This document shows positions 13,468 to 64,000 of a stretch of 64,000 nucleotides of DNA, piece after piece. Position numbers and translations under genes: made by a program. Positions within the stretch are counted from its first letter, which is position 1. Each line of letters starts with the position of its first letter. The stretch is from Xanthomonas sp. (GTDB lineage: Bacteria; Pseudomonadota; Gammaproteobacteria; Xanthomonadales; Xanthomonadaceae). Location: NCBI RefSeq assembly GCF_017163755.1, contig NZ_JAFIWC010000010.1, positions 1-64,000 of the forward strand, in the 5' to 3' direction. The notes beneath the pieces were generated by a model that had not been told where the DNA came from, ran no database searches, and was given only the letters and a program-made list of their open reading frames with translations.

Positions 13468-13481
13468 CGTCGCCTCCCCGC

Positions 13482-14255: not shown

Positions 14256-14336
14256 GCCCGGCAGTTTAATCGACTTGCCAGGCCCGCCGGCGGGTGCTGC
14301 AATCGGCGCCTACCCCGCCCTCCCCCGGAGACCGTG

Positions 14337-14726
14337 ATGCGTGCCCTGACCCGGCTTTGCTGCCTGTGCCTGTTCGCCAGTTCCGCCGCCAGCGCCGCCA
14401 CCATCTACCAATGGAAGGACGCCCAGGGGGTCACCCATTACTCGGAAAGCCCGCCGGCCGGGCAGAAATACGAGGCGCGGCGCATCGACGCGCGCGGCGG
14501 CACCGCGATCCAGGCCGAGGCTGCAGGCGCGCCGGCGGAGAACGCCAACTGCACCACCGCGCGCAAGAACCTGGACCTGCTGAACAAGCCGGCGCCGGTG
14601 ATGTCCGACAACGACGGCGACGGCAAGCCGGACGGGGAACTGAGCGCAGCGCAGCGCGAATCGCAGAAGACCCTGGCCGAGGCGGCGATCAAGGCCTATT
14701 GCACGCCGGCCAATCCCGGCACCTGA
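14337..14726 (+). CDS. DUF4124 domain periplasmic protein
   Basis: 129 residues with a Sec signal peptide ([20 protein letters not shown]) followed directly by the DUF4124 core [18 protein letters not shown]. The rest is hydrophilic, with two Cys (in NCTTA and YCTP) that could form a disulfide, and an Asp-rich [11 protein letters not shown] stretch resembling a single calcium-binding loop; that binding is inferred. The function of DUF4124 proteins is unknown. It stands between divergent pssA and downstream proS. Confidence 0.85.
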
Positions 14727-14823
14727 GCGCCGGCCCCGCGCGCCGCCGGGCGTGGCGCCGGCGCCCGCAACGCGGGCAATGACTGGCAAAATAGGCGATT
14801 CCGCCGTTTCGCGAAGCCCGCTA

Positions 14824-33999: not shown

Positions 34000-35055
34000 T
34001 TATGCCGGCGTGCCGATGCGTTCCAGGCGATAGCTGCCGTCCAGTACCTGCCACACCCACTCCTGGTTATCCAGATACCAGTCGACCGTGATCGCGATCC
34101 CCTGTTCGAATGTGTACCTGGGCTCCCAGCCCAGTTCGTTCTTGAGCTTGGACGCATCGATCGCATAGCGTCGGTCATGGCCGGGACGGTCGGCGACGAA
34201 GGTGATCTGGCTGGACCGCGATTGGCCGTCGGCACGCGGACGGCGTTCGTCCAGCAACCGGCAGATGGTCTTCACCACCTCGATGTTCTCGCGCTCTGAA
34301 TTGCCGCCGACGTTGTAGGTCTCGCCCACGCGGCCCTTGGCCAGCACGATACGGATGGCCTCGCAGTGATCGAGCACGAACAGCCAGTCGCGAACCTGCC
34401 TGCCGTCGCCATAGACCGGCAGCGGCTCGCCAGCCAGCGCCTTGGCGATGACCAGCGGAATGAGCTTCTCCGGGAAATGATACGGCCCGTAGTTGTTCGA
34501 GCAGTTGGTGGTCAGCACCGGCAGGCCGTAGGTGTGGTGGAAGGCGCGGACCAGGTGATCGGACGCAGCTTTCGACGCCGCGTAAGGCGAGTTCGGCGCA
34601 TACGGCGTGGTTTCGGAAAACTTGCCGGTCTCGCCGAGCGTGCCGTACACCTCGTCGGTGGACACATGCAGGAAGCGGAACGCGGCGCCCTGCTCGTCGG
34701 CGAGCGCTTTCCAGTAGTCGCGCACCGCTTCCAGCAGCCCCAGCGTGCCCACGACGTTAGTCTGGATGAAGGCGCCAGGGCCATCGATCGAGCGGTCGAC
34801 ATGGCTCTCGGCGGCGAAGTTGATCACCGCGTCGGGGCGATGCTCGCCCAGCAGCTGGCTGACGAGCTCACGGTCGCCGATGTCGCCGTGCACGAACACG
34901 TGGTCGGGGTTGTCCCGCAAAGAAGCCAAGGTGCGCAGGTTGCCGGCGTAGGTCAACACGTCCAGGTTGACCACGCGAATACCGCGGCGCACCGCGTCGA
35001 GTACGAAATTGCCGCCGATGAAACCGGCGCCGCCGGTGACTAGCCAGGTTGGCAC
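34000..35055 (-). CDS. rmlB: dTDP-glucose 4,6-dehydratase
   Basis: SDR dehydratase, 351 residues, first gene of the rml operon. The NAD-binding motif is [12 protein letters not shown]; the catalytic Thr-Asp-Glu is in HVSTDEVYG; Tyr/Lys are in [14 protein letters not shown]. It diverges from etfB across about 250 bases that must hold the promoters of both. No convincing -35/-10 pair for rmlB was found. Confidence 0.97.
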
Positions 35056-37092: not shown

Positions 37093-37893
37093 ATGAACAG
37101 AGAGCCATCGGCAGTGGACAGCCTCGATACGCTAATCGCCGATGCCCGCGCGCGCCTGTTGCGCATGCACTTCGAAACACGATCCGGCCATGTTGGGGGA
37201 AACCTTTCTTGCCTGGATGCGCTTCTGGTGCTGCATCACCGTGTCTTGCAAGCGCAAGACCGTTTCATCCTTTCGAAAGGGCATGCTGCCGGAGCGCTTT
37301 ATGTCACCCTCTGGAGCCTCGGCCTGCTGACTGACGACGACCTTCTGACCTTTGGTCAGGATGCCAGTCGTCTGCCCGGCCACCCCAGCGGCACCGGCAT
37401 TCCCGGGCTGTTGTTTTCCACCGGATCGCTGGGCCATGGACCATCGTTGGCCGCTGGCCTGGCGCTGGCGGCGCGCATGCAGGATTCGCAAAGAAGGGTG
37501 TACTGCCTGTGCTCGGATGGCGAATGGCAGGAAGGAAGTTGCTGGGAGGCGCTGACCTTTGCGGTACATCAGCGCCTGGATAACCTGACGATCATGGTGG
37601 ACCAGAATGGCCTCCAGGGATTCGGCACCACCCAGGAAGTGATTTCCTGCTCCGATCTGAGTCCTCGCCTCCTTGCCTTCGGGGCCCATGTGGTGCGCGT
37701 CGACGGGCACGACACACAAGCGCTGCAGAGCGCATTGATGACACGCCTGAGCGGCGCCCCGACCGTGCTGGTGATGGATACCGTCAAGGGGCGAGGTGCG
37801 CATTATGCCGGCCTGCTTGAATCGCACTATTTGCCCTTGACCCAGAACCAGTACGATCAGGCCAAGGCTCAACTGGCCAACGAGACTCCATGA
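37093..37893 (+). CDS. Transketolase N-terminal half (TPP-binding subunit)
   Basis: Split transketolase, first subunit, 266 residues. Visible are HFETRSGHVGGNLSCLDALL, LSKGHAAGALY, the TSTGSLGHG-type region (FSTGSLGHGPSLAAGLALA) and the ThDP/Mg motif DGEWQEGSCWEALTFAVHQRLDNL. It lacks the pyrimidine-binding and C-terminal domains, supplied by the next gene, whose start overlaps its stop (ATGA). A complete housekeeping transketolase would be one 660-residue chain, so this is a specialised enzyme. In a sugar locus it may form a ketose or transfer a two-carbon unit to a sugar donor; that is inference. Confidence 0.92.
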   Translation: MNREPSAVDSLDTLIADARARLLRMHFETRSGHVGGNLSCLDALLVLHHRVLQAQDRFILSKGHAAGALYVTLWSLGLLTDDDLLTFGQDASRLPGHPSGTGIPGLLFSTGSLGHGPSLAAGLALAARMQDSQRRVYCLCSDGEWQEGSCWEALTFAVHQRLDNLTIMVDQNGLQGFGTTQEVISCSDLSPRLLAFGAHVVRVDGHDTQALQSALMTRLSGAPTVLVMDTVKGRGAHYAGLLESHYLPLTQNQYDQAKAQLANETP

Positions 37894-38783
37894 GAAAGGC
37901 GTTTGCCGCTGCCGTCGTCGCCGGATGCAATACACAACGGCATTTCTTTCTGACAGGAGATCTGGGCTTCATGGCCTTGGAAGAGGTGCGAGACGCTTTC
38001 GGTCAGCGCTTCATCAATGCCGGTGTGGCGGAGCAGAACATGATCGGCGTTGCCGCGGGGCTGGCGCGCGAGGGAAATATCGTGTTTGCCTACAGCATTG
38101 CGCCGTTTTGCTATGCGCGGCCCTTCGAACAAGTTCGCAACGATGTGTGTCTGCCCGGACTACCGGTCTGCCTGGTTGGAAACGGCGGTGGCTTCGCGTA
38201 TGGACACATGGGTCCAACCCACCATGCCTTGGAAGATTGCGCTGCGATGAACGCACTGGGCATGCGCGTCAAGGTCCCCGCATTCGACGATGACCTACCG
38301 CATCTCCTGGCCGATCTGAATGGCCCCACCTATCTTCGCCTGGGCTACGACATGCGTCCACAAGGCGCCCAGGTGCCAGCCTATGCACCCTGGCGACAAC
38401 TGCTAAGCGGCAACCGCGGTGCGCTACTTGCGCTGGGGCCCTTGGCCGGCGTCGCGTGGTCGGCGCTGATCAACGTTTCTGCCGAGAGTCGCCCGGCGGT
38501 ATGGGCAGTAACCGAGTTCGATTTCGGATGCATCCCTGAAGCTCTGTGGCAGCAGCTGTCGGAAGGCCCGCTGTTCGTGGTGGAAGAACATGTCAGAGAA
38601 GGAGGACTCGGCATGCATGCCGCTATGGCCGCCCTGCAACAGGGCCGTGCGGTGCGGCACTTTGTCCACCGCCCAGCGCTACGTTATCCCTCCGGCCTGT
38701 TCGGCTCACAAAATTTCCACCGTCGCGAAAGCGGCATTGATGCTCACGGCATTCGCGCCATGATCCTGGCGTTTCAGGCATGA
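37890..38783 (+). CDS. Transketolase C-terminal half
   Basis: Second transketolase subunit, 297 residues. The pyrimidine-binding domain is at about 1-165, with the catalytic-type Glu in FINAGVAEQNMIGVAAGLA and the FAYSIAPFCYARPFEQVRND segment. The C-terminal domain (about 180-295) contains FVVEEHVREGGLGMHAAMAAL in parts. It pairs with the preceding gene by a four-base overlap and overlaps the next gene likewise. The product's acceptor is unknown. Base composition is somewhat AT-richer than the etf genes. Confidence 0.92.
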   Translation: MRKAFAAAVVAGCNTQRHFFLTGDLGFMALEEVRDAFGQRFINAGVAEQNMIGVAAGLAREGNIVFAYSIAPFCYARPFEQVRNDVCLPGLPVCLVGNGGGFAYGHMGPTHHALEDCAAMNALGMRVKVPAFDDDLPHLLADLNGPTYLRLGYDMRPQGAQVPAYAPWRQLLSGNRGALLALGPLAGVAWSALINVSAESRPAVWAVTEFDFGCIPEALWQQLSEGPLFVVEEHVREGGLGMHAAMAALQQGRAVRHFVHRPALRYPSGLFGSQNFHRRESGIDAHGIRAMILAFQA

Positions 38784-40744
38784 ACATGGAGCACATGATC
38801 AAGGCTTTGGAAGGACCGATCCTGGTAATCGGTGCCAGCGGCTTTATCGGCGCAAATCTGCTTCGTGCCTGTTTGGCACAACGTAGCGACGTCATAGGTA
38901 CCACGTTCTCCGGCGACTCCTGGCGCCTGCATGGCATTGCCGCTGCCAATTTGGCGTTTCTCAATCTTACCGACGCGATTTCGGTCAAGACGCTGCTCCA
39001 CCGTATTGCCCCACGGACAGTGTTCGACTGCTCCTCCTTCGGAGCGTATTCCTTCGAAGACGATTTCCAACGCATCCATGCAACGAACTACCTCAGCTTC
39101 ATCGGAATACTAGAGCAGCTGAAGGAATCACGACTGGCCGCCTACGTGCGCGCGGGCTCCTCATCCGAATACGGGATCAATGCCTCGGGACCGGATGAAG
39201 ATGCTCCGCTGATGCCTAACAGCCATTACGCCGTGAGCAAAGCCGCAGCGAGTCAGGCGATCGCGTATTACGGCAAGATCAGGCAGTTCCCGATCGTGAA
39301 CCTGCGACTGTATTCTGTCTATGGCCCCTATGAGGACAGCTCGCGCCTGATCCCGGCACTGTGCGAGCGCGGACTGCGCGGACATTTGCCGATGTTTGCA
39401 CATGCGGATGTCTCTCGTGATTTTGTGCACATAGACGACGTCGTATTGGCGTTCGTCTCTGCTGCCGCGCGAATGAGGCCGCAGATTGCCGGCGAATCGT
39501 TCAATATCGGCTCAGGCGTTCCCACACGCCTGGATGCCCTTGCAGAGATGGCACGATCGTTGTTCGGGATCGATGAAACGCCGCAGTTCAGCGCTTCCGC
39601 AGGGCGCGCGTGGGACGTGAGCGACTGGTTCGCCAATCCCGACAAGGCGGCGCGGCTGCTCGGATGGAAAGCCACGACAGACCTAACCGACGGCCTTCGC
39701 CTCACCTCAGAATGGTGGAAATCGCAACTGACGCTTGCAAACTTCAGCGACCTGACTAAGAAATCTCCCGAACAAGCGAAACGCAACTCTGTATCAGCCA
39801 TCATCGCCTGCTATAAGGATGAGCAAGCGATTCCGGTAATGCACCAACGATTGACCGAGGTGTTTCAACAGCTTGGCATCGACTACGAAATCATCTTCGT
39901 CAACGACTGTTCGCCCGACGATTCTGCCGAAACAATCCGCGCACTCAGCGCGTCGGACCCGCACGTGATCGGCATCACCCACTCGCGCAATTTCGGTTCG
40001 CAGGCCGCCTTCCGTAGCGGCATGGAATACGCCAGCAAAGAGGCCTGCGTCCTGTTGGACGGCGACCTCCAGGACCCGCCCGAGTTGATCGCCGATTTCG
40101 TTCGCGAATGGCGAAATGGCGCCGAGGTTGTCTACGGCCGCCGCGTGAAACGGGAGATGCCCTTCCTGCTCGAAACCTGCTATCGCACCTTCTACCGATT
40201 GTTCTCTGCCATGAGCGAAGTCCCAGTGCCCAAGGATGCCGGCGATTTTTCGCTATTGGATCGCACAGTTGTTTACTGGATGCTTCAATGCAATGAGCGC
40301 GACGCCTTCCTGCGCGGGCTTCGTGCGTTTGTCGGCTTTCGCCAGGTTGGCGTCGACTACTTGCGTCCGGAACGCATGTTTGGCACGAGCACCAACAACT
40401 GGATACGCAACATCGGCTGGGCGAAGAAGGGCATCTTTTCTTTCTCCCGCATGCCCCTGCATCTGCTTACCGCCCTTGGCGGCGGTGCATGCTTACTGAC
40501 CATACTGTTGGCGACGCTTAGTATTGCATTGAGACTTCTCCATCCCGAATCCGTACCGAAAGGGATCACCTTCATTTCATTGCTGGTGATGTTTTTCGGA
40601 TCGATGACTATTTTCGGCATCGGGCTTCTAGGCGAATACATCGGCAAGATTTTTGAGGAAGCGAAGGCACGCCCTGCCTTCATCCGCCGCAACTTAATCA
40701 TCCATGGCGAGATTCGACTACCACCCACGGGAACCGCGCCATGA
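38780..40744 (+). CDS. Fused SDR sugar epimerase/dehydratase and polyprenyl-phosphate GT2
   Basis: 654 residues, two enzymes in one chain. Residues 1-330 form an extended SDR: cofactor motif VIGASGFIGANLL, catalytic Ser/Tyr-Lys in AGSSSEYGI and NSHYAVSKAAASQ. Residues about 337-560 are a GT2 domain of the DPM1/ArnC/GtrB class: SAIIACYKDEQAIP, VNDCSPDDSAE, DGDLQDPPEL. Two TM segments (about 560-640) anchor it. By family it would load a sugar onto undecaprenyl phosphate after the SDR half modifies the nucleotide sugar or the bound sugar. It overlaps both neighbours by four bases. I know no standard enzyme with this order of domains in LPS loci. Confidence 0.9.
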   Translation: MNMEHMIKALEGPILVIGASGFIGANLLRACLAQRSDVIGTTFSGDSWRLHGIAAANLAFLNLTDAISVKTLLHRIAPRTVFDCSSFGAYSFEDDFQRIHATNYLSFIGILEQLKESRLAAYVRAGSSSEYGINASGPDEDAPLMPNSHYAVSKAAASQAIAYYGKIRQFPIVNLRLYSVYGPYEDSSRLIPALCERGLRGHLPMFAHADVSRDFVHIDDVVLAFVSAAARMRPQIAGESFNIGSGVPTRLDALAEMARSLFGIDETPQFSASAGRAWDVSDWFANPDKAARLLGWKATTDLTDGLRLTSEWWKSQLTLANFSDLTKKSPEQAKRNSVSAIIACYKDEQAIPVMHQRLTEVFQQLGIDYEIIFVNDCSPDDSAETIRALSASDPHVIGITHSRNFGSQAAFRSGMEYASKEACVLLDGDLQDPPELIADFVREWRNGAEVVYGRRVKREMPFLLETCYRTFYRLFSAMSEVPVPKDAGDFSLLDRTVVYWMLQCNERDAFLRGLRAFVGFRQVGVDYLRPERMFGTSTNNWIRNIGWAKKGIFSFSRMPLHLLTALGGGACLLTILLATLSIALRLLHPESVPKGITFISLLVMFFGSMTIFGIGLLGEYIGKIFEEAKARPAFIRRNLIIHGEIRLPPTGTAP

Positions 40745-41676
40745 AGCGGCAGGCACGACTGCACCCTGCCTCCGACCGCGCGTGTCCCGGCTGCGCTGGT
40801 CGCGAGGTCGAACATTTCGCGGACGAGCGTATCGATCCAAATAAGGTCAGCGACTTCACCTATGCCTCGCGCAAGACGCCGGAGTTCATGTGCCTGCGAC
40901 TGGTGCGCTGCGCTGCTTGTGATCTGGTGTTCGCGCCGCGCCCACCTGAAGATATCTTTCTGTCGCAGGCTTACTCGGAGGCGGCTTACGATTCCACGCC
41001 GGAAGCCGCTGCTGCGGCAGCTAGCTATGCGCAAGCATTGGCCCCACATATCAAGCAACTTTCGGATCTATCGGGAGCCGTGGACGTTGGCGCAGGAAGT
41101 GGTCCATTGCTGCCATATCTGCAACGTTTCGGCTTCAAATCCGTCGTCGGGGTGGAACCCTCGCGTGCGGCGATCAACGCCGCACCCGAAGCGGTAAAGG
41201 CGCTACTGATCGAAGGCATGTTCGATCCGAAAATGCTGAAGGGGCAGCGCGTGTCGCTGATTTGTTCATTCATGACGCTCGAACACGTAGCCAATCCGGG
41301 CGAGTTGGTCCGTTCCGCGTACACGCTTCTGGAACCCGGCGGCATGCTCGCCGTGGTGGTGCACAACTGGCGCGCGCCATTGAATCGAGCGCTTGGACTG
41401 CGGTCCCCCATCATCGACGTGGAACACCTGCAGCTTTTTAGCCATCGCGCGGCCCGCGCCTTACTGTCGTCCAACGGCTTTCAAGACGTGACGGTCAAAG
41501 CGATACGCAACGCCTACCCATTGCGGTACTGGTTGCGCCTGACCCCCTTGCCTGCCGGCGTCAAGGCGGCGTTGTTGCGGGTGCTCGATCTGATCGGAAT
41601 ATCCGGCTCATTGCTGCCCTTGCGGGTAGGCAACATCATGGCCATTGGCGTTAAGCCAGCGAGAGATCCCCAATGA
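40741..41676 (+). CDS. Class I SAM methyltransferase with N-terminal zinc ribbon
   Basis: 311 residues. Cys pairs C15/C18 and C57/C60 (CPGCAG, CAACDL) suggest a zinc ribbon at the N-terminus. The SAM-binding motif is AVDVGAGSGPLLPYL, followed by VVGVEPS and the SFMTLEHVANPGEL motif. This layout resembles NDP-sugar C-methyltransferases of the TylC3/ubiG-like groups, which act on keto sugars. It could act on the ketose made by the transketolase pair; that is inference. It overlaps its neighbours by four bases on each side. Confidence 0.85.
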   Translation: MKRQARLHPASDRACPGCAGREVEHFADERIDPNKVSDFTYASRKTPEFMCLRLVRCAACDLVFAPRPPEDIFLSQAYSEAAYDSTPEAAAAAASYAQALAPHIKQLSDLSGAVDVGAGSGPLLPYLQRFGFKSVVGVEPSRAAINAAPEAVKALLIEGMFDPKMLKGQRVSLICSFMTLEHVANPGELVRSAYTLLEPGGMLAVVVHNWRAPLNRALGLRSPIIDVEHLQLFSHRAARALLSSNGFQDVTVKAIRNAYPLRYWLRLTPLPAGVKAALLRVLDLIGISGSLLPLRVGNIMAIGVKPARDPQ

Positions 41677-42416
41677 AGCAAAGCAACTCAAACCAGATCA
41701 AGAAGAACGTAGCACAGTTCGACGAAGACGTTCGTACCACAGGATCCTACCGCTACACCACGGATCGCTTGTCGGCCAATTTGGCAAACGCGCGTATCAG
41801 CCGGGCGGTCGCCACTGCGTTTCACTTTTCCGGCAAGCGCGTTCTCGACCTTGGCTGTGGCGATGGCTCCTACACCCTTGAGTTCCCTTCATTGGGTGCA
41901 TCGCACGTACTGGGCGTAGATCCTGCCAGCGCAGCTATCGATGCCGCACGTGCCAAGGCTTCGGCATACGCACTGGAATCGGCAGTGCAGTTCGAGGTCG
42001 GCAATATCTATGAGATGTCGCCCTATCTTAGAGAGGATCGATTCGACTGCATCGTGTTGCGAGGCGTGCTTCACCATCTGCCGGACCCCGCCCGCGCCAT
42101 TGCCGGCATGGCAGGATTCAAGGGCTCGATTCTGATCGTGGAACCGAATGGCCTCAACCCCGTGCTGAAGTTGCTGGAGCGCTACTCCACCTATCATGTC
42201 GAACACGAGGAGCGCTCCTTCGCACCTTCACTGATCCGCCGCTGGCTGCAATCGGCAGGCTTTCGCATCTCGTCTTCTTCTCTCATCAACCTGGTGCCAT
42301 TCTTTTGTCCCGATGCTGCCGCACGCGCGCTTCGACTAGTCGAGCCATTGGTGGAACATACGCCGTTGATGCGCGACATCGCATGCGGACAGAGCGTCAT
42401 CGTCGCTAGACCATGA
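41673..42416 (+). CDS. Class I SAM-dependent methyltransferase
   Basis: 247 residues, without a zinc ribbon. The SAM motif is VLDLGCGDGSYTLEF, the acidic loop is VLGVDPAS, and DRFDCIVLRGVLHHLPDP is the motif typical of the UbiE/Methyltransf_11 group. A C-terminal Tyr/Arg-rich region (EERSFAPSLIRRWLQSAGF) resembles O-methyltransferases on sugars or lipids. It overlaps the next gene by four bases. The substrate cannot be named from sequence. Confidence 0.87.
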   Translation: MKQSNSNQIKKNVAQFDEDVRTTGSYRYTTDRLSANLANARISRAVATAFHFSGKRVLDLGCGDGSYTLEFPSLGASHVLGVDPASAAIDAARAKASAYALESAVQFEVGNIYEMSPYLREDRFDCIVLRGVLHHLPDPARAIAGMAGFKGSILIVEPNGLNPVLKLLERYSTYHVEHEERSFAPSLIRRWLQSAGFRISSSSLINLVPFFCPDAAARALRLVEPLVEHTPLMRDIACGQSVIVARP

Positions 42417-42787
42417 CGACGTCCCGCCCCTGGCCTTATCTGGCATTGATGATCGGCTGCATGGCGGCCTCTCAGATCATGCTTAAACAGGCCGGCCTTT
42501 ATGCGGCGGCTCACTTGGGATGGATCCACACCATAGTTTTCAATCCATGGCTTTGGCTGGGACTTGTCGCTTCTACTGCCGGCTTTGCGGCTTGGTTCCT
42601 GACGCTACGACGTATGCCGCTGGCCAGTGCATACCCCTGGACCGCTTTGATTTATCTACTGACTCCATTGGCAGGAATCGTACTGTTCCATGAAACGCTG
42701 AGTCTTGGATTCTGGCTGGGCATAGCGCTGATCGTCGTCGGTCTATTCATTACCAACGGAAGCGCGAGAACCGATGAATGCCTATGA
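42413..42787 (+). CDS. SMR-type flippase subunit, ArnE-like
   Basis: 124 residues, four TM segments (about 5-25, 42-62, 75-95 and 100-120). SQIMLKQAGL, LRRMPLASAYPWTALIYLLTPLAG and LFHETLSLGFWLGIALIVVG match the small multidrug resistance fold of the ArnE/ArnF subunits that flip undecaprenyl-phosphate aminoarabinose. It pairs with the next gene by a 14-base overlap. A lipid-linked sugar made by the SDR-GT2 fusion is the likely cargo, by context. Confidence 0.85.
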   Translation: MTTSRPWPYLALMIGCMAASQIMLKQAGLYAAAHLGWIHTIVFNPWLWLGLVASTAGFAAWFLTLRRMPLASAYPWTALIYLLTPLAGIVLFHETLSLGFWLGIALIVVGLFITNGSARTDECL

Positions 42788-43106
42788 GACGGTGCTCTGC
42801 GTGGCGTCGGTTGGCTGCAGCGTGAGCTCACAGCTGTCAATCAAAGCCGCAACCCTGTCCGCGCCCAGACCACGCCAGGCCGTCCTCCTTCTATCCGCCG
42901 TCGCGTTGCAGCTTGCTTCTGTATTGCTGGTTGTACAGGCGCTACAGACACTTCCGCTATCACTGCTTGTGCCTTTTGCCGCACTTGCCTACCTAGCGGT
43001 GCCCTTGCTGGCAACAATATTGTTCAAGGAACGACTGCTACCCCGCTTTTGGGTCGGCGCCGCCATGGTATTCGCTGGGGTGGCATGCATGGGGCTGTAC
43101 AGATGA
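42774..43106 (+). CDS. SMR-type flippase subunit, ArnF-like
   Basis: 110 residues, four TM segments. VGCSVSSQLSIKAATL, LQTLPLSLLVPFAALAYLAVPLLATILFKERLLP (in parts) and FWVGAAMVFAGVACMGL match the partner SMR subunit. Together with 42413-42787 it makes a heterodimer, as in ArnE/ArnF. It overlaps the downstream GT-C gene by four bases. Confidence 0.85.
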   Translation: MNAYETVLCVASVGCSVSSQLSIKAATLSAPRPRQAVLLLSAVALQLASVLLVVQALQTLPLSLLVPFAALAYLAVPLLATILFKERLLPRFWVGAAMVFAGVACMGLYR

Positions 43107-44695
43107 GAGCGGACGTGCGCAGCGTGCTTTGGATCAAGTTTGTCACCATGCTGCTCGTTGTGTTAGCGACAACCGTGCTACCGCGTGTCGCGAACATATC
43201 CGCCCCCCCTTCCACCGATGAAGGCTACATGGCCTATTTCGCGATGAAGATCGCGGCATCGGTGTCCAGTCATGGGCGACTGCCAGATGACGGCCCGCTG
43301 ATGCTGTACCCCATGCTGCTATCTTGGATATTCGAACTTCCTGGCAATCACAGCGTTCTGCTGCGCATCGCGGATCTCGTCGTGGCATCCGTGGCGGGTG
43401 GACTTTTATTTTTCGTGTTGCTCAAGGAATCACGCAGCGTCTTGGCCGCTGCAGCCATCTCGTCGCTCTTCCTTCTGACGATGAATGCCGCCGTGTTCGT
43501 ACAATACGGCTTCAAGAACAGTTTTTTCGCTGCCTATGTTCCACTACTCGCGGCACTATTGCTGTCAGGGAAAGACGGGCCGCTTTCGGCGCGACGCTAC
43601 GCAAGCATCGGCGCACTAGTCGCACTCGGCGTTTTGCTCAGAGAGACACTGGCTCCATTCGTTGTTTTTGCCGTCGCCGCCATCTGGATCAGCCGCGGCT
43701 TCAGGAGCACATTGCATTTCTGTGCCGGTGGCGCAGCCGCGGGACTCTCGTTGCTTGCACTTATCGCACTTTGGCGAGGCGATTTCGAAGGAGTGGCAGC
43801 CGGCTATAAAAGCGCTGGACTTTTATATCGCGCACTTGAGAACCAGCGTCAAGAGTACTTCAACAACGCCCTGAGCGGCTTTTTTGCCACTGCGCGGCTG
43901 CCATTGATTCTTGCAACGGCCAGCCTTCTGATAATAGTGTTGCGCCAATGGATGCGACGCAATGCATGCGAACTCCCTAAGGCCACGTTGTGGCTAGGCA
44001 TTACGCTTACTGCGTTGATAGAACCTACGACGAAAATCGGCTTTCCTTACCACTTTGCTGTCTGCCTCCTTGGCTTGGCGGGATTGTGCGCCCAGGGATG
44101 GCGCGTGTTGATCCAAGGCCGGCCACCTCGCCAAGCACACGCCGCAGCATCTCTCTTCGCCGCTGCGACGGCCTTGATGATTGCCCCACAGATCAAAGAC
44201 GCCTTGAAGACGCTGCCCTATGCCACCAGGGAAGCATACCGCGTAGCGCGCAGCGGATGGCCAGCCGAGATCGTTAACCAATCGAACTACCTGATGGCTG
44301 CACGCCTGATCCAGGCCACCACCCCGCCCGCGGGAACCGTGAGTGTCAGCGGCTTCATGTTTTCGCTATATCCGCTTTCAGGCACACTTCCTCCATCCGG
44401 CGAATTGAGCAACCTCAGTGCTGAACTCATTCAACTGGGACTGGATGGAGAACGCCTTAAAGCCGAGTTGATTCGCTGCTCTCCCGACGTAGTCATGACT
44501 ACTACACGTGTTGACTGGCCGGACCCGCGAATACTCACCGCCGCAGTAGAAGCGACAGGCCTCTACGAAGCCGCTGGCACCATCCCGGTGGATACCAGCA
44601 AGTCGTATGGCACATTTGGCGGTACGGTCTATCGCAAGACCAAGCCAGGCGGGCACGCCTGTCGTGACCGAGGCAATGCGAACTGGGCGCAGTAG
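43103..44695 (+). CDS. GT-C fold membrane glycosyltransferase (ArnT/PMT-like)
   Basis: 530 residues with about ten TM segments, starting at the ATG at 43103 that overlaps the preceding gene. The first loop has the acidic pair D39-E40 in STDEGYMAYFAMK, the typical catalytic position of ArnT/PMT-like GT-C enzymes using polyprenyl-phosphate donors. A soluble C-terminal region (about 400-515) follows. The last dozen residues (HACRDRGNANWAQ) lie antisense to a galE remnant and are probably not native. The acceptor would be the exported O-antigen in the periplasm, by context. I see no closer family. Confidence 0.82.
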   Translation: MRADVRSVLWIKFVTMLLVVLATTVLPRVANISAPPSTDEGYMAYFAMKIAASVSSHGRLPDDGPLMLYPMLLSWIFELPGNHSVLLRIADLVVASVAGGLLFFVLLKESRSVLAAAAISSLFLLTMNAAVFVQYGFKNSFFAAYVPLLAALLLSGKDGPLSARRYASIGALVALGVLLRETLAPFVVFAVAAIWISRGFRSTLHFCAGGAAAGLSLLALIALWRGDFEGVAAGYKSAGLLYRALENQRQEYFNNALSGFFATARLPLILATASLLIIVLRQWMRRNACELPKATLWLGITLTALIEPTTKIGFPYHFAVCLLGLAGLCAQGWRVLIQGRPPRQAHAAASLFAAATALMIAPQIKDALKTLPYATREAYRVARSGWPAEIVNQSNYLMAARLIQATTPPAGTVSVSGFMFSLYPLSGTLPPSGELSNLSAELIQLGLDGERLKAELIRCSPDVVMTTTRVDWPDPRILTAAVEATGLYEAAGTIPVDTSKSYGTFGGTVYRKTKPGGHACRDRGNANWAQ

Positions 44696-45047: not shown

Positions 45048-46133
45048 TTACTCGTGGAAGTCGAAGGCGCTATAGCCGTGACGCTTCACCAACTCGTCGC
45101 GTTCGGCGGACTTGAGATCCTCGCGCACCATCTCGGCCACGAGTTCCTTGAACGTGATCTTGGGCTCCCAGCCCAGCTTCTGCTTGGCCTTGCTTGCGTC
45201 GCCCAAGAGCGTCTCCACTTCGGCGGGACGGAAATACAATGGGTCGACCGCAACCACGCAATTGCCCTTGTCGTCGTAGCCCTTTTCGTCGACCCCGTTG
45301 CCTTCCCAGCGGATGTTCATGCCGAGTTCGGCGGCAGCGGCATTCACGAAATCGCGTACGCTGAACTGCACGCCGGTGGCGATCACGAAGTCTTCCGGCT
45401 GCTCCTGCTGCAGCATCAGCCACTGCATCTCGACATAGTCCTTGGCATGGCCCCAGTCACGCAGCGCATCCATGTTGCCCAAATACAGGCAGCTCTGCAG
45501 GCCCAGCTTGATCCGCGCCAGAGCGCGGGTGATCTTGCGGGTGACGAAGGTTTCGCCGCGCACCGGCGATTCGTGGTTGAACAGGATGCCGTTGCAGGCG
45601 TACATGCCATAGGACTCGCGGTAGTTCACCGTGATCCAGTAGGCGTAGAGCTTGGCCACCGCATAGGGCGAACGCGGGTAGAAGGGCGTGGTTTCCTTCT
45701 GCGGGATCTCCTGGACCAGGCCGTACAGCTCCGAGGTCGAGGCCTGGTAGAAACGCGTCTTCTTCTCCAGGCCCAGGATCCGGATCGCCTCGAGCACGCG
45801 CAGCGGGCCCAGCGCGTCGGAGTTGGCGGTGTATTCCGGCTCCTGGAACGACACGGCCACGTGGCTCTGCGCGGCCAGGTTGTAGATCTCATCCGGCTGG
45901 GTCTGCTGGATGATGCGGATCATGCTGCTCGAATCCGTCATGTCGCCATGGTGCAGGATGAAGCGGCGGTCCTTGACGTGCGGATCCTGGTACAGGTGAT
46001 CGATGCGATCGGTATTGAACAGCGAGCTGCGCCGCTTGATACCGTGGACGATATAGCCCTTACCCAGCAGGAACTCGGCGAGATACGAACCATCCTGGCC
46101 CGTCACACCCGTAATCAAGGCAACCTTACTCAT
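45048..46133 (-). CDS. gmd: GDP-mannose 4,6-dehydratase
   Basis: SDR converting GDP-mannose to GDP-4-dehydro-6-deoxymannose, 361 residues. Motifs: [17 protein letters not shown], the Thr/Ser-Glu in [15 protein letters not shown], catalytic Tyr/Lys in [10 protein letters not shown], and the [17 protein letters not shown] region typical of GMD. It is last in the - operon, 34 bases after a glycosyltransferase gene. GDP-mannose comes from XanB; the next enzyme is Fcl at 58528. Two-step GDP-L-fucose synthesis is established for these families. Confidence 0.97.
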
Positions 46134-47481: not shown

Positions 47482-48447
47482 TCACGACTGCCCGGCCGAT
47501 TTCCGTCGCGCCGCCGAGCCACTGGACTGGAACTCATACGGCAGGGCGATCGGACGCCGCTTGGACTCGATATGCACCTGGCCAAGATACTCGCCCATGA
47601 TGGCGAGGACGAAAAACAGCAACGCAAACTGCAACGACAGCACGGCGCATACCACCAGAGGGGCCGTCCAGCCCGGGGGCGCGAAGAATACCGCGCCGAT
47701 ACACGCCACGGTACAAAGCGCGGAAACAGCGCCTGCCAGGCCGATCTTCCTCAGCGGCTCGATCGAGATCCCCGTCAGGCTGTCGAGCGCATAGCGGATC
47801 ATCGACATCAGTTTGTATTTGGTTTCCCCGGCAAAGCGCCGGTCCCGCTCGTAGGCGACCACGCTGGTGTTCATCCCCAGATAGGGGACCAGCACCCGGA
47901 AAACGCCGTTGACCTCGGGCAGTTCCAGCAGCTTCGTCACCGCCTTCCGGTCCAGCAGGCGGAAGTTCGCGGCACTTTCCTCCAGCTTGAGCTTGCCGGA
48001 AAGCGAGTCCATGACGGTGTAGAAGGCGTTCGCCGTCGCACGCTTGAAGAAGCTGTCGCTCGGGCGCCCGGAGCGTGAACCCACGACGATGTCGGCACCG
48101 TTCTCCCAGGCCCGGATCATCTCCAGAATGACCGCCGGCGGATCCTGCAGGTCGGCGTCCATCACCACGACGGCATCGCCGGCCGCCGCGCGAAGGCCTT
48201 CCTGGATCGCGGCCTCCAGGCCGAAGTTCCTCGTCAGACGCAGCACGCTGATCGTATCCGGGAACCGGGCGCGAACCGCCTTCATCTGCTCATGGGTCCC
48301 GTCCCGGGACCCGTCTTCCACCAGAAGCAGCTCGATGTCGTAGCGATCCGCGATCGGCGCCAGCGCCTTCAGCGTTTCCTCGCAGAAGGTCGAAACCAGC
48401 GCCTCCTCGTTGTACATCGGACCAATGATCGAAATCAGCTTCTTCAT
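47482..48447 (-). CDS. GT2 polyprenyl-phosphate glycosyltransferase (GtrB/ArnC-like)
   Basis: 321 residues. The GT2 domain (1-230) has IIGPMYNEEALVSTFCEE, VEDGSRDGTHEQMKA and VMDADLQDPPAVI; two C-terminal TM segments (about 232-255 and 265-295) anchor it in the membrane. By family it transfers a sugar from a nucleotide donor to undecaprenyl phosphate on the cytoplasmic side. GtrA (50586) is the likely flippase. It is the nearer of two adjacent paralogues. Confidence 0.88.
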   Translation of the reverse strand: MKKLISIIGPMYNEEALVSTFCEETLKALAPIADRYDIELLLVEDGSRDGTHEQMKAVRARFPDTISVLRLTRNFGLEAAIQEGLRAAAGDAVVVMDADLQDPPAVILEMIRAWENGADIVVGSRSGRPSDSFFKRATANAFYTVMDSLSGKLKLEESAANFRLLDRKAVTKLLELPEVNGVFRVLVPYLGMNTSVVAYERDRRFAGETKYKLMSMIRYALDSLTGISIEPLRKIGLAGAVSALCTVACIGAVFFAPPGWTAPLVVCAVLSLQFALLFFVLAIMGEYLGQVHIESKRRPIALPYEFQSSGSAARRKSAGQS

Positions 48448-48493: not shown

Positions 48494-49453
48494 CTACAGC
48501 ACGTTGACCCGATCCTGATCGACCATGACCACGCTGTTCTTCTCGAACGCGATGGAGTAATCGCCCCGGTCGCTCCTGTCGTTGAGGAGCCTGCCCAGGT
48601 ATTCGCCGAAGAACGCCATCATGATGAACTGGAACATGAAGAGCACGGACATCGAGAGCACGACCGTCGTCCAGCCCGGGACGATGTTGTTGCTTACCAG
48701 GTGGATCAGCACGCTGTACGTGGCCAGCACGAACGCGGCGAGCGCACCCAGGAAGCCGAGCACGGACATCCAGCGCAGCGGACTGAGCGAATTGAACACC
48801 ATCAGCCGCACGAGCCGGTAGATGCCCTGCACCAGGGATTTCTCCCCCGCCAGTGGCGACGTGCTCTGGTACCTGTACGCAACCGAGGGATAGCCGGTCT
48901 TCTGGATCCGCAGGTAGAACTGGTGGTGGAACCGGCCAGTGCTCGTGACCGCGTTAACGGCGCGCCGGCTCAGGCATCGCAGGCTGGTCGCGTTCTTCGG
49001 CAACTGGTAGTCGATCGCGCGCAGGAGGCGGTCGGCGAAATACCTGAAGGCCGCATAGGCGGGCGTTTTGCGCCGCTCGGCCGTGCCGACGACGACGTCA
49101 TACCCGGACCTGCAGAGCTCCACGACGTCCGGGACCACCGAGATGGGATCCATCTCGTGGTTGAACAGCACGACGAAGTCGCCGATGGCATTCTCCAGGC
49201 CTGCCGCCCAGGCCACGTCCAGGCTGACCGTGCCCACCAGCTGGATGTAGCGCACGCTGGGCAGGTGCTTGAGCATCTCGGAGATGTCCCTGCTGGCGCT
49301 GGAATGCATGATCGCGCCCTGCCCGATCACCACGATCTCGTAATCCGAGTAGCGGGCATTCAGCTCGCCCTGCATGGCGGAGATTTCCTCGTAGCGCAGC
49401 GGGGATCCCGCCTCCACGACGTACACCACCGAAACAAAAGAATCGCTTTTCAC
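48494..49453 (-). CDS. GT2 membrane glycosyltransferase (GtrB-like paralogue)
   Basis: 319 residues. The GT2 part is divergent: VSVVYVVEAGSPLRYEEISAM at the start and FVVLFNHEMDPISVV in place of the DxDLQDP motif, so its metal-binding acid is less clear (NHEMD). Two C-terminal TM segments (about 235-285). The second GT2 next to it has the canonical motif, so this one may be a non-catalytic or altered-donor partner. It abuts the FAD oxidoreductase stop with no spacing. Confidence 0.82.
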   Translation of the reverse strand: MKSDSFVSVVYVVEAGSPLRYEEISAMQGELNARYSDYEIVVIGQGAIMHSSASRDISEMLKHLPSVRYIQLVGTVSLDVAWAAGLENAIGDFVVLFNHEMDPISVVPDVVELCRSGYDVVVGTAERRKTPAYAAFRYFADRLLRAIDYQLPKNATSLRCLSRRAVNAVTSTGRFHHQFYLRIQKTGYPSVAYRYQSTSPLAGEKSLVQGIYRLVRLMVFNSLSPLRWMSVLGFLGALAAFVLATYSVLIHLVSNNIVPGWTTVVLSMSVLFMFQFIMMAFFGEYLGRLLNDRSDRGDYSIAFEKNSVVMVDQDRVNVL

Positions 49454-53863: not shown

Positions 53864-54654
53864 CTCCCGACCCCGGGCAGGCGCTCAACGGGAATGAAGA
53901 AGACGTTGAGGATCGGACCGCCGTCGAAATCCACGAAGGAATCGGATTGCTTCAGGTAACGGCAAACCCGGTAGTTCCGGCCGGCGAAGAACTCGGCAAG
54001 ATTCGGATAGCTGAGGGGATTGTGCTCGACCATGAAAGCCGGTCGGCACCTGTCGATGGTGTTGGCCAGCCCGGCCACCACGGAGTCCTCGAGTCCTTCC
54101 ACGTCGATCTTCACGACGTCTACCTGGAGGTTCAGCTCGTCGAGCGGAATCACCTGCACCACGTTCTCGACCAGCTGGACATGCCGGGAAAGGCCGTCGA
54201 TATTCATGTGCTTCTCGAGGTTGGCACGCACCGCCTCGGGGTTCATCGACGCATAGTTCGTGAGCGCGAAACCCCGGTACACCGGGGTGAAGAGCGTGAA
54301 GGACGCCGCACCGCGGCCAGCGCCGACCATGCGGAAGTCGAAGGGCCAGCCCTTCGCGCGAAGCGCGGCAAGCGACGCCTCGTGCGCGGGATTGGGCTCG
54401 ATCGAGAAAATCGACTTCTGCGGCCGAAGGTGATGCATCGACCGAGCGGAGAGCCCGTCGTTGGCGCCCACGTCCAGCATCAGGTCGCGATCATTCGCCA
54501 GCTTGCTCAGGCCATGGAAGTCCGCGTCGTGCGGCAGCATGAACGGCAGGCGGCCGACCACCCAGCGCGAGAACACGTAGAGATAGATGTTCGAGACGGC
54601 GATCCGCTGCAAGGCGTCCTTGAGCCGGAAGACGGTTTTTACTGGAGCAATCAT
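53860..54654 (-). CDS. FkbM family methyltransferase
   Basis: 264 residues. The SAM-binding region is DLMLDVGANDGLSARSMHHL, then IFSIEPNPAHEASL, and the FkbM hallmark VDVVKIDVEGLEDSVVAGL with AFMVEHNP. By family it is a sugar O-methyltransferase. The N-terminus has a hydrophobic stretch near residue 20-40 but no clear TM. It overlaps the large membrane protein by four bases. Confidence 0.88.
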   Translation of the reverse strand: MIAPVKTVFRLKDALQRIAVSNIYLYVFSRWVVGRLPFMLPHDADFHGLSKLANDRDLMLDVGANDGLSARSMHHLRPQKSIFSIEPNPAHEASLAALRAKGWPFDFRMVGAGRGAASFTLFTPVYRGFALTNYASMNPEAVRANLEKHMNIDGLSRHVQLVENVVQVIPLDELNLQVDVVKIDVEGLEDSVVAGLANTIDRCRPAFMVEHNPLSYPNLAEFFAGRNYRVCRYLKQSDSFVDFDGGPILNVFFIPVERLPGVGR

Positions 54655-54697
54655 GTGCTGGCACCCAAGAAAAAACTATTGAATATGAGGTTGGAAG

Positions 54698-55495
54698 TCA
54701 GTTCTTTCCGAACGCTTGCGCCACGACTTCCAGCGAGTCGAACAGGTCCGCCAGGCCAAGATTCTTCATTTCGAGCGAAACCCACCCTTCGTAGCCTTCC
54801 GACTTCAGCAGTCGGGCCAGCTCGGCGTGTTCAGAGCGGTTGACGATCTTCACCAGGGCCGGCTCGCTGATCTGCACATGGCTGGCATAGGGAATGGCCG
54901 CAGCCACCGAGGCGATGGGCTCCTGGTTGGCGATGATCGTGCCCACGTCCAGGTTCAGCCTCAAGGACGGGGAGTCGATGAGCCGCACCAGTGCCAACGC
55001 CTCGGGTGTGGTGTTGAGGTAGTTGGTGCCGTAAAGCGTCGGATTAGCCTCCATCCCGATCACCACGCCCTTCCGCTCGGCGTAGGCCGCACAGTCCGAG
55101 AAGAATCGAATCCCTATCGGATACTGCCCCGCATTTTCGATGACCCGGTTTTTAGGACATCCGAAAACGATATGAGGCACGCCGACCTCCACAGCAAAAT
55201 CAATTGCCGAATGGGTGTATCGCAGCAGGAAATCGCGCTCATCTTCCGACCCGAAGATCCGCTCGCTCAACCCATACCAGACCGACTGCATGGAGCATGT
55301 CTCCAAGCCCCATGCGCTGCGGAATTCCGCGACCATCGATGCCGCCAGGCGCCGGCTGTACGGCTCGTACGGATTCACCGGAACGAGCCGGGTTGGCGCA
55401 ATCTCCAGCCCGGAGAAGCCCTCGGCCCTCAGCTTCTCGAAAACAGCTTGGTCATCTTCTGATCCCCATCCGATATTGGACGCTGCGAGCTTCAT
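54698..55495 (-). CDS. Sugar phosphate isomerase/epimerase (xylose isomerase-like TIM barrel)
   Basis: 265 residues of the AP-endonuclease-2/xylose isomerase-like superfamily. The start KLAASNIGWGSEDDQAVFEKL, then GLEIAPTRLVPVNPY and IGMEANPTLYGTNYLNT, carry the metal-ligand Glu; NLDVGTIIAN and HVQISEPALV carry further ligands. Its sugar substrate is unknown. It overlaps the aldo-keto reductase by four bases, so the two probably work on the same intermediate. Confidence 0.85.
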   Translation of the reverse strand: MKLAASNIGWGSEDDQAVFEKLRAEGFSGLEIAPTRLVPVNPYEPYSRRLAASMVAEFRSAWGLETCSMQSVWYGLSERIFGSEDERDFLLRYTHSAIDFAVEVGVPHIVFGCPKNRVIENAGQYPIGIRFFSDCAAYAERKGVVIGMEANPTLYGTNYLNTTPEALALVRLIDSPSLRLNLDVGTIIANQEPIASVAAAIPYASHVQISEPALVKIVNRSEHAELARLLKSEGYEGWVSLEMKNLGLADLFDSLEVVAQAFGKN

Positions 55496-56454: not shown

Positions 56455-56479
56455 ACCCGTAGTCCGTGTAGTAATGAGG

Positions 56480-62034: not shown

Positions 62035-63405
62035 TTAGTTTCCTTGCCGGCGCCAAGTGGCATTCATGCGCAGATCGATGACACCGCCAAAGAAGTACTC
62101 CTCCTTCCGCATCAGCACCTGAAAGAACGCTGCCTCGTCCACCCAGTGCAGCATCCGCTGCGCCAAATAGTCGGGGGTGTCTTCATGGGACACCGACGCT
62201 TGCACTTCGTACAGATTGACGCCCAGCACGCAGTCGCATTCGAGTTCGACCTCGAAACGTTCGCCTGCGTGAATCTGGCGCCGCCAGAAAGTTTCGGCGG
62301 AGGGATTCTCCGCCATGCGCTGCATGTCCTGATTCAAAGTGCCCCAGGAGTAGAGCTTGACGCCTTCCTTGTTGCGGATGCGCACGCCCACAGACAACTT
62401 GTCCGTGGTGATCTGCGACTCGCAGACCACCTTGATGCGCAGCCGTTCGCCGGGATAGAACACGCTGACACCGGTGCCGTCTGCCGCAAGGGTCGTGACA
62501 CTAAGGATGCGTACTCCACCGTCGCCGAAGGTCAACCGGTCCGAACCGATCATTGACGCAACCGGCGCCTGCGCCATATCGGTCTGCCCCGACTCTTCGC
62601 TCTTCAGCATTTCGGTCAGACTACTAAAGTAGGCCGCTTCTTCGTCATGCAAGAGCCTGCGGTAATTCAGCACCACATTGGCCGACGCACCCCAGTCCAG
62701 CTGCCTCCCGTTACTCAACAGCAGGCAGCGGCTGGTCAACGTCCGGACGCTCTCCTGATCATGCGAGACAAATAGCAAGGACATGCCGTCGGATACCAGC
62801 TTCTCGATCCGCTGGAAGCAACGCTTCTGGAACAGCGCATCGCCGACGGCCAACGCTTCGTCCACGATCAAGATGTCCGGTTCGACCTGCACCTGCACCG
62901 CGAATGCCAGGCGCACCAGCATGCCACTGGAGTAGGTCTTGACCGGCTGGTCGAGATGATCGCCGATGTCAGCGAACGCCGCGATGGCATCGAACTTGCG
63001 GTCGATCTCGTCGGCAGTAAACCCCAGCAGGGCAGCGTTGAGATAGACATTCTCGCGACCGCTGAACTCGGGGTTGAAGCCCGACCCGAGTTCGAGCAGC
63101 GCGGCTACGCGCCCTTTCACCTCGACACGCCCCTCAGTCGGCGCCAGCGTGCCCGTCACGATCTGCAACAAGGTGCTCTTGCCACTGCCATTGCGGCCCA
63201 GAATGCCGACCGACTCGCCGCGGCGGACGTCGAAATTAACGTCGCGCAGAGCCCAGAACTCGCGAAAGTACTCACGCTGGCCTAGGCCGGCCGCGCGACG
63301 CAGGCGCGGCAGGACGAACTGCTTCATTCGGTCGCGAGGCGTGTCGTACATCTCGTAGCGCTTCGACACCGACTCGACGTGGACAACGATCTCGTCAGAG
63401 GACAT
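62035..63405 (-). CDS. wzt: O-antigen export ABC ATPase Wzt with C-terminal binding domain
   Basis: ATPase of the ABC-dependent O-antigen exporter, 456 residues, ATG at 63405 (11-base overlap with wzm). Walker A is GRNGSGKST (70-78); the Wzt-type GRVAALLELGSGFNPEFSGREN follows; the signature is KTYSSGMLVRLAFA; Walker B is DILIVDEALAVGD. The extra C-terminal domain (about 300-456) is a beta-rich module, in the family a binder of the methylated chain end, which fits the methyltransferase gene next to it. Confidence 0.95.
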   Translation of the reverse strand: MSSDEIVVHVESVSKRYEMYDTPRDRMKQFVLPRLRRAAGLGQREYFREFWALRDVNFDVRRGESVGILGRNGSGKSTLLQIVTGTLAPTEGRVEVKGRVAALLELGSGFNPEFSGRENVYLNAALLGFTADEIDRKFDAIAAFADIGDHLDQPVKTYSSGMLVRLAFAVQVQVEPDILIVDEALAVGDALFQKRCFQRIEKLVSDGMSLLFVSHDQESVRTLTSRCLLLSNGRQLDWGASANVVLNYRRLLHDEEAAYFSSLTEMLKSEESGQTDMAQAPVASMIGSDRLTFGDGGVRILSVTTLAADGTGVSVFYPGERLRIKVVCESQITTDKLSVGVRIRNKEGVKLYSWGTLNQDMQRMAENPSAETFWRRQIHAGERFEVELECDCVLGVNLYEVQASVSHEDTPDYLAQRMLHWVDEAAFFQVLMRKEEYFFGGVIDLRMNATWRRQGN

Positions 63406-64000
63406 CGGCGAAACCCTTGCGCGTTTTCTGAAACCAGGCATATCCGAACATCATCACCGCCAGCCCGACCGCCATCGCCAGACTCCACTGCGGCAGACGT
63501 GGCAACTGCCCGAAAACCAGCACACTGCGACTATCTTCGATGATGTAGGTCAATGGATTGAGATACATCCAAGGGCGCACCCACTCCGGCAGCGACGCGG
63601 CCGGGTAGAACACCGGCGAGAGAAACAGCATGACGCTGGAAAGCACACCGGTGACTTGCGAGATATCGCGCAGGTAGACCCCGGACGACGCCAACAGCCA
63701 CGACACGCCGGTCATCATCAGGATCAGAGGCAACATGACTAATGGGAACAGCACCGCAGTCCACGGCACGCCGACACCCAACACGATCTGCGCAATCAAT
63801 AGCACCAGCATGCTGATAGCCAGGTGGAACAGTGCCGAGCCGATCAGCACCCAAATGAGCGCGTCCAACGGGAAGATGACCTTCTTGACGAAATTCACGT
63901 TGGCGATGATCAGAGTCGGTGCCTTGTTAAGGCACTCGGAAAAAAACCCGTGCACCGCCAAGCCGACGAAAGCCAGCACCGCAAAGTTCACCTTGTCCAC
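63395..64000 (-). CDS. wzm: O-antigen export ABC permease Wzm (5' end beyond window)
   Basis: Permease of the Wzt/Wzm exporter. The visible 201 residues are the C-terminal three quarters; the start lies past the right edge. The open frame's first codon (GTG) is internal. Five TM segments remain, with LRDISQVTGVLSSVMLFLSPVFYP and LNPLTYIIEDSRSVLVFGQLP, typical of ABC-2 polysaccharide permeases. First visible gene of the - operon, so the promoter is outside the window. Confidence 0.94.
   Translation of the reverse strand: MDKVNFAVLAFVGLAVHGFFSECLNKAPTLIIANVNFVKKVIFPLDALIWVLIGSALFHLAISMLVLLIAQIVLGVGVPWTAVLFPLVMLPLILMMTGVSWLLASSGVYLRDISQVTGVLSSVMLFLSPVFYPAASLPEWVRPWMYLNPLTYIIEDSRSVLVFGQLPRLPQWSLAMAVGLAVMMFGYAWFQKTRKGFADVL

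Follow-up and report, generated by a model that had tools for sequence, protein, structure and literature searches.

A split-transketolase cassette in Xanthomonas sp. that probably makes its own unusual donor for periplasmic glycosylation

An eight-gene cassette headed by a split transketolase

Why should a transketolase, divided between two genes, head an operon whose other members resemble the machinery that loads a sugar onto a lipid carrier, flips it and transfers it? This question is raised by a 64,000-nucleotide stretch of Xanthomonas sp. (contig NZ_JAFIWC010000010.1, positions 1 to 64,000 of the forward strand, hereafter the window), in which eight open reading frames, all present on the plus strand, occupy positions 37093-44695 and are joined by six 4-base overlaps and one 14-base overlap (42774-42787), just as a first-pass annotation describing eight coupled genes had claimed. 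They encode, in order, the N-terminal, thiamine diphosphate (ThDP)-binding half of a split transketolase (tktN, 37093..37893) and its C-terminal half with the pyrimidine-binding domain (tktC, 37890..38783); a short-chain dehydrogenase/reductase (SDR) of the nucleoside diphosphate (NDP)-sugar epimerase/reductase type fused to a GtrB/ArnC-like family 2 glycosyltransferase (GT2; 38780..40744); two class I methyltransferases (MT1, 40741..41676, and MT2, 41673..42416); two flippase subunits of the small multidrug resistance (SMR) type (SMR1, ArnE-like, 42413..42787, and SMR2, 42774..43106); and a membrane protein (43103..44695) that is probably a periplasmic glycosyltransferase of the GT-C type. 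We are confident that this cassette attaches a sugar to polyprenyl phosphate for export. We also favour reading it as a three-component system of periplasmic glycosylation that supplies itself with an unusual donor, a sugar probably made by transketolase branching of an NDP-4-keto-6-deoxyhexose.

From these genes we infer the following chemical steps. TktN and TktC would form one ThDP enzyme in two chains, which would use a common donor, for example a ketose phosphate, as the source of a two-carbon hydroxyacetyl (glycolaldehyde) unit and attach this unit at the keto carbon of an NDP-4-keto-6-deoxyhexose, for which the dTDP-4-keto-6-deoxyglucose made by RmlB is the likeliest candidate. The SDR half would reduce the carbonyl of the new branch to give a 1,2-dihydroxyethyl-type side chain, after which the sugar would be O-methylated by one or both methyltransferases and transferred to polyprenyl phosphate by the GtrB/ArnC-like half. 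The SMR pair would then flip the lipid-linked sugar, and the GT-C enzyme would join it to a polysaccharide of the cell surface, probably the O-antigen whose ABC exporter is encoded next door. The Arn/Gtr-type logic of loading, flipping and transfer, already proposed in the first-pass annotation, is supported, and so is its idea of a sugar made by the transketolase, most likely two-carbon-branched.

The transketolase pair

Profile searches returned the families that had been assigned from the letters alone, with Transketolase_N in TktN (7.8e-33), Transket_pyr in TktC (1.3e-17), Epimerase and Glycos_transf_2 in a single protein (5.5e-39 and 6.4e-23), Methyltransf_23-type domains in MT1 (7.3e-21) and MT2 (3.9e-18), and EamA/SMR matches in the two small membrane proteins; the last membrane protein had no match in the Pfam or NCBIfam scan. 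The best matches of the pair in the PDB are the N chain (6yak, 1.1e-45) and the C chain (6yaj/6yak, 8.1e-27) of a split transketolase, and split transketolases rank before one-piece transketolases. This split enzyme, from Carboxydothermus hydrogenoformans, is the nearest solved relative of both chains, yet a distant one, and its C chain has HQ and RNS where TktC has HH and RND in the printed alignment. In the scan of TktC, only the split transketolase stands out from one-piece transketolases (2.5e-10) and DXS (5.3e-9). TktN also matches TPP_enzyme_C far more weakly (5.8e-5), yet above the cut-off, and we ranked DXS-like or E1-like chemistry lower because the TktN matches to those families are far weaker than that to transketolase. 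A YerE-type architecture of the decarboxylase superfamily was discarded for the pair, whose best matches are transketolases.

In an alignment of 33 related loci (the window group, described below), Asp142, Asn172, His33, His64, His97 and His245 of TktN and Glu48, His111 and Arg150 of TktC are kept in all 33, so that the ThDP and catalytic residues of both halves are complete in every locus. We take the roles of these residues to follow those in other transketolases. Since the transketolase His, Asp, Asn and Glu residues are invariant, the donor chemistry of TktN/TktC should be hydroxyacetyl transfer. Position 28 of TktC is never Ser and position 99 is Gly in 33/33 loci, at sites that, placed by eye from alignments, presumably correspond to the Ser and His phosphate contacts of other transketolases; Gly99, being usual in other groups as well, is not distinctive of the window group. 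The window genome also has a separate one-piece transketolase-like gene (G000:C25, a 681-residue frame). In a phage collection, identity to tktN was at most 42% among the matches listed (15 of 20 records).

Conservation and spread of the core

The window group comprises 21 loci from a scan of contigs, six from 397 genomes of the order, one from a plasmid, four from 398 genomes of the phylum, and the window itself. The contig scan, which drew many loci from metagenome bins, used six short peptide patterns and so finds close relatives only; it yielded 39 loci, 21 of which (L034-L054) have tktN, tktC and the SDR, fused to the GT2 in every case where the contig extends far enough, the other 18 being more distant or one-piece transketolases. 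Gene content, gene order, the SDR-GT2 fusion and their conservation can be read directly from these loci. The core of the cassette is widespread in several phyla, the record titles of relatives naming Pseudoxanthomonas, Synechococcus, Nitrospinaceae, Rhizobiales, Accumulibacter, Duganella, Vibrio, Pseudomonas protegens, Verrucomicrobia, Synergistales and others. The overlap between tktN and tktC is exactly 4 bases in 25 of the 28 relatives measured (-1, -1 and +2 in the others), which argues that the arrangement is not due to chance.

The conserved unit consists of tktN, tktC and SDR-GT2, usually with MT1, whereas MT2, the type of flippase and the terminal membrane enzyme vary. The fusion is found in 32/32 readable loci including the window, the 33rd being cut at a contig end within the SDR. 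MT1 occurs in 27/33 loci, window included, and three of the six loci without it (L040, L047 and L113) stop at a contig end or close to one; MT2 homologues with at least 50% identity occur in 16/33 loci including the window, two of them split between frames. The exact eight-gene order recurs in L034, L049 and L054, and L045 has the same order with one extra gene. The eight-gene unit proposed at first reading therefore recurs in full in three relatives, while the part that is conserved is the three-gene core, the genes of which are not scattered but kept in order in the 33 loci.

The cassette is thus real and conserved, and it is probably also mobile. The eight genomes of the same genus that were listed gave no match at 1e-20, which points to a patchy distribution and, probably, to horizontal movement. 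The region from 37 to 45 kb has a G+C content of 57-61%, lower than the roughly 70% of most of the window's first 25 kb. At least 80% of the fusion protein is matched in 25 of 1013 records of a plasmid collection. One of them (L082, from Methylobacterium aquaticum) carries the core at 12194-15944 with a fusion match of 56%; this plasmid of 1.57 Mb is typed as mobilizable and is a possible route of spread for the core. The other 24 records (H2-H25, from Leisingera, Roseibium, Ensifer and others) match the fusion at about 30%, with both halves together, and SDR and GT2 are annotated there as separate genes where named.

Candidate sugars to receive the proposed two-carbon unit

The dTDP route is suggested by the neighbours of the cassette. 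In L050, rmlB-rmlA stand directly before tktN, as they do in L038 with one membrane-protein gene between, and L034 and L054 have rmlDCAB behind the last gene, on the opposite strand; altogether rmlB lies nearby in the window and in 4/32 relatives. The rmlB gene of the window (34000..35055, minus strand; dTDP-glucose 4,6-dehydratase, TIGR01181, 510.5 bits against a cut-off of 365.1) is placed outside the operon and is a candidate source of the 4-keto sugar. Across 31 genomes that carry the core (the group without L048 and L082), RmlB scored above its cut-off in 29, against 14 for Gmd and 10 for CDP-glucose dehydratase, and the window genome had no CDP-glucose dehydratase at 1e-60. These counts are permissive, speaking against Gmd or CDP-glucose dehydratase as the universal source more than they prove dTDP-4-keto-6-deoxyglucose.

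Downstream of the cassette by only 0.35 kb lies gmd (45048..46133, minus strand; GDP-mannose 4,6-dehydratase, TIGR01472, 591.4 bits against a cut-off of 415), which is also present in the L038 stretch, and the acceptor could accordingly be GDP-4-keto-6-deoxymannose, or else a keto sugar made by the SDR itself. We regard this as improbable. Gmd is above its cut-off in fewer than half of the core genomes (14/31, as above), gmd is present in only 1/32 of the relatives' stretches, and the SDR has Ser residues where an aligned 4,6-dehydratase has Thr-Asp-Glu, so that a 4,6-dehydratase function was rejected for it. We take Thr-Asp-Glu to be the catalytic motif of 4,6-dehydratases, and the roles of the SDR motif residues are assumed likewise. 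The presence of Tyr150 and Lys154 together with Ser at the Thr-Asp-Glu sites fits a reductase or an epimerase.

The main support for a keto-sugar acceptor comes from more distant TktN/TktC pairs, which associate with another NDP-sugar dehydratase. In L122 the order is RfbF, CDP-glucose 4,6-dehydratase, TktN, TktC, SDR, GtrA, GT2 and a large membrane protein, with RfbF (glucose-1-phosphate cytidylyltransferase) at 445.6 bits (cut-off 300.25) and the dehydratase at 478.7 bits (cut-off 278.45). Homologues of both CDP-glucose genes also lie near the pair in L128, L119, L120, L125, L152 and L165, the dehydratase of L119 being above the cut-off, and the count leaves aside L150 and L161, whose RfbF matches are weak (24-25%). 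Groups were labelled A, B, Bp, C and O from their gene neighbours before a transketolase tree of 80 rows was made, a quick and unrooted one with long-branch warnings that omits eight C rows and three one-piece transketolases. The seven rows with RfbF and RfbG fall in one clade of 12 rows (SH-aLRT, an approximate likelihood-ratio branch support, of 99), against none of the 29 rows of its sister set (Fisher p 3.5e-5, ignoring kinship, L119, L120 and L125 being near-copies). Arg83, Asn84, Asp85 and His112 of TktC are each kept in 33/33 loci of the window group and in 12, 12, 12 and 11 of the 12 rows of the CDP-glucose clade, against 11, 5, 22 and 8 of the remaining 29.

A third set of split transketolases (group C: L123, L126, L129-L131, L133, L134, L136, L138, L139, L141-L143, L145-L147, L153, L154, L158, L162, L166 and L056) adjoins a family of about 220 residues and often also a protein of about 510 residues that we take to be HldE-like; it looks like a set serving a different sugar pathway. 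Such a neighbourhood recalls heptose activation and could suggest that the product of the pair is a free ketose or a higher sugar phosphate (e.g. octulose phosphate), to be activated by enzymes encoded elsewhere before the SDR and GT2 act. Sugar phosphates are indeed the normal substrates of transketolases, and the two arginines of TktC on the phosphate side, Arg2 and Arg150, persist. We nevertheless find this unlikely: Pfam and NCBIfam scans revealed no sugar kinase, isomerase or nucleotidyltransferase among the eight genes, and the third set differs at TktC Arg83, Asn84 and His112 (present in 4, 1 and 1 of 14 rows), which are kept not only by the window group but also by the rows with CDP-glucose genes (7/7). 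The earlier annotation had left open an unusual ketose or a two-carbon-branched sugar; the choice now shifts to a branched NDP-sugar, a free ketose being less likely because the set has no kinase or nucleotidyltransferase and because related pairs adjoin NDP-sugar 4,6-dehydratases. Bradyrhizose was also considered and dropped, no link having emerged from one search listing.

Proposed reduction, lipid loading and methylation

The SDR part of the fusion covers approximately residues 1-325. In the PDB it is closest to a range of epimerases and dehydratases, with the GDP-6-deoxyhexulose reductase 2pk3 (1.9e-23) among the matches though not the best, and reduction of the branch is proposed by analogy with yersiniose-type pathways. 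The GT2 half matches the glycosyltransferase sll0501 (5e-58), which we take to be GtrB, and then ArnC (about 1e-39), and it is followed by two hydrophobic segments at the C-terminus (569-587 and 599-617), the arrangement of a polyprenyl-phosphate sugar synthase with C-terminal transmembrane (TM) helices. Tyr150/Lys154 of the SDR and Asp427/Asp429 of the GT2 are invariant in 28/28 rows.

MT1, with its N-terminal CxxC pairs, is a probable sugar O-methyltransferase. The first-pass annotation had proposed C-methylation, which found no support. Neither MT1 nor MT2 matches the domains of known sugar C-methyltransferases in the Pfam scan, Methyltransf_13 and Methyltransf_14 being absent among the five Pfam matches of MT1 at 0.001. 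We take these two to be the zinc-binding and C-terminal domains of sugar C-methyltransferases of the TylC3 type. O-methylation by one or both enzymes is therefore likelier, and its place after the reduction is our suggestion. C-methylation, like the free ketose and the Gmd-made acceptor, ranks below branching of an NDP-4-keto sugar with O-methylation.

Flippase, terminal enzyme and probable target glycan

Both small membrane proteins match EamA (SMR1, 5.2e-7; SMR2, 1.7e-6) and have ArnE as their top NCBIfam family, although below its cut-off (5.7e-12 and 7e-10). Across the 33 loci the flippase is an SMR pair in 13 and GtrA in 8, with both in none, so that a small flippase of a three-component system is found in 21/33, window included; GtrA was confirmed by Pfam in L040, L042 and L073, the three from the window group that were checked. 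The terminal protein has nine hydrophobic segments and, after the first, a TDEG motif that is invariant in 6/6 aligned homologues, features that fit a probable GT-C periplasmic glycosyltransferase. It had no PDB match at E 10, and PMT_2 is matched weakly, by 2/6 members (best 4.6e-4; 0.11 for the window protein).

Homologues of this enzyme occur in only 5/32 relatives (L034, L045, L049, L052 and L054). Profile comparison showed no homology with two other terminal families, and this is what would be expected if the terminal enzyme sets the acceptor. A DEG motif after the first TM segment is found in 3/13 other candidate membrane proteins without BLAST similarity (L037, L038 and L076). Frames of at least 400 residues with at least six predicted TM segments within 9 kb occur in 26/33 loci of the window group vs 4/22 of group C, TM counts coming from a simple hydropathy rule and the frames being stop-to-stop and uncurated, some probably spurious, in stretches of unequal length.

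The variation of the terminal enzyme suggests that acceptors probably differ among relatives. In the window, the surroundings resemble a locus for a surface polysaccharide with an ABC-type exporter. Upstream lie rml genes and neighbours that we read as etfBA; downstream, besides gmd, are glycosyltransferases, an FkbM-type methyltransferase, an aldo/keto reductase and wzt (62035..63441, minus strand; ABC_tran 1.1e-22, Wzt_C 4.3e-19), the ATPase of an ABC-type O-polysaccharide exporter with a Wzt_C domain. O-antigen is consequently a plausible acceptor, judging from the neighbours and from Wzt with its Wzt_C, and the available portions of a published study describe three-component periplasmic additions for polysaccharide loci of this exporter type (PMC11127046). 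Decoration of something else (lipid A, core, capsule or protein) is a less likely but serious option, in keeping with the ArnE-like flippase subunits and with the narrow, unmatched family of the terminal enzyme; it sits less well with the place of the cassette within a polysaccharide locus with glycosyltransferases and Wzt.

Several observations weigh against the branching pathway, besides the persistent phosphate-side arginines. The window operon itself lacks a 4,6-dehydratase gene, and 28/32 relatives, as well as L115, have no homologue of RmlA-D, Gmd, RfbF or RfbG at 40% identity or more in the fetched stretch. RmlB is common anyway, in 115/150 sampled genomes (p about 0.05), so its presence is permissive for dTDP-4-keto-6-deoxyglucose. 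The quick unrooted tree does not connect the CDP-glucose clade with the window group, and some of the seven RfbF/RfbG rows in that clade are near-copies, so that the acceptor is extended to the window group by analogy. L115, L132, L149, L156 and L159 have the pair, a methyltransferase and a GT2 with no SDR match; judged by their sequences, they are a module variant without the reductase, and SDR reduction would not be universal. No flippase was found in 12/33 stretches, several of which break off at contig ends, the sequence-based GT-C assignment is weak, and we know of no assayed enzyme of the window group and of no product.

Relation to known systems

The clustering of a polyprenyl-phosphate sugar synthase, a flippase and a GT-C-type transferase is shared with the GtrA/GtrB/Gtr* systems of Shigella and Salmonella and with the undecaprenyl-phosphate-pentofuranose system of Citrobacter youngae, the latter also with an ABC-type O-antigen locus, as far as the available portions of the source describe them (PMC11127046). 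Unlike in the Gtr systems, the synthase here is fused to an SDR, a split transketolase and methyltransferases belong to the operon, and the flippase is an SMR pair. Like YerE-type branched sugars of lipopolysaccharide (yersiniose, erwiniose), whose carbon branch is put onto an NDP-4-keto sugar by a ThDP enzyme, the proposed sugar would be branched at a keto carbon; YerE is, however, of the decarboxylase type and uses pyruvate or other keto acids, whereas the split transketolase would add hydroxyacetyl (PMC12247030, available portions). The same 2025 review (section 2.3) presents transfer of hydroxyacetyl to a keto sugar by a split transketolase only as a proposal, for miharamycin and amipurimycin, and gives 13 further putative sequences, all from Streptomycetes. 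Those are antibiotic pathways, whereas the cassette concerns lipid-linked surface sugars in several phyla.

With the ArnC/ArnE-ArnF/ArnT modification of lipid A, as we understand it, the cassette has in common the ArnC-like loading, the ArnE-like SMR subunits and a GT-C-like last enzyme, but it has no aminotransferase or formyltransferase and carries the transketolase pair instead. Among the matches listed from open-licence papers, the gene set is undescribed; a paper on Actinoplanes places TktN/TktC within the wps-2 exopolysaccharide cluster, and the available portions of papers on Cobetia and Xanthomonas hortorum mention only an ordinary transketolase.

What would be new here is a donor-making front end on a three-component periplasmic glycosylation system, with a transketolase in a role only proposed elsewhere. 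If the pathway is correct, transketolase chemistry enters the branching of surface sugars, a reaction that is only proposed according to the available portions of the 2025 review (PMC12247030), three-component glycosylation gains a new class of donor, and branched, methylated sugars are predicted in glycans with checkable structures. Dozens of gene pairs, several of them beside substrate-making enzymes, make the question directly testable. The chances seem to us evenly balanced that this is a widespread, hitherto undescribed route, in which split transketolases act as hydroxyacetyl transferases on NDP-4-keto-6-deoxy sugars to give sugars of the 4-C-(1,2-dihydroxyethyl) type that pass through SDR-GT2 and polyprenyl phosphate and are added in the periplasm to surface glycans in several phyla.

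Other genes of the window

Neighbouring proteins encoded on the minus strand at 48494-49453 and 47482-48447 resemble GtrB-type GT2s, and the first of them, with no Pfam match at 1e-5, may be decayed. Further along the minus strand, at 53860-56523, an FkbM methyltransferase, a xylose-isomerase-like TIM barrel and an aldo/keto reductase stand in a row and perhaps serve a second unusual sugar.

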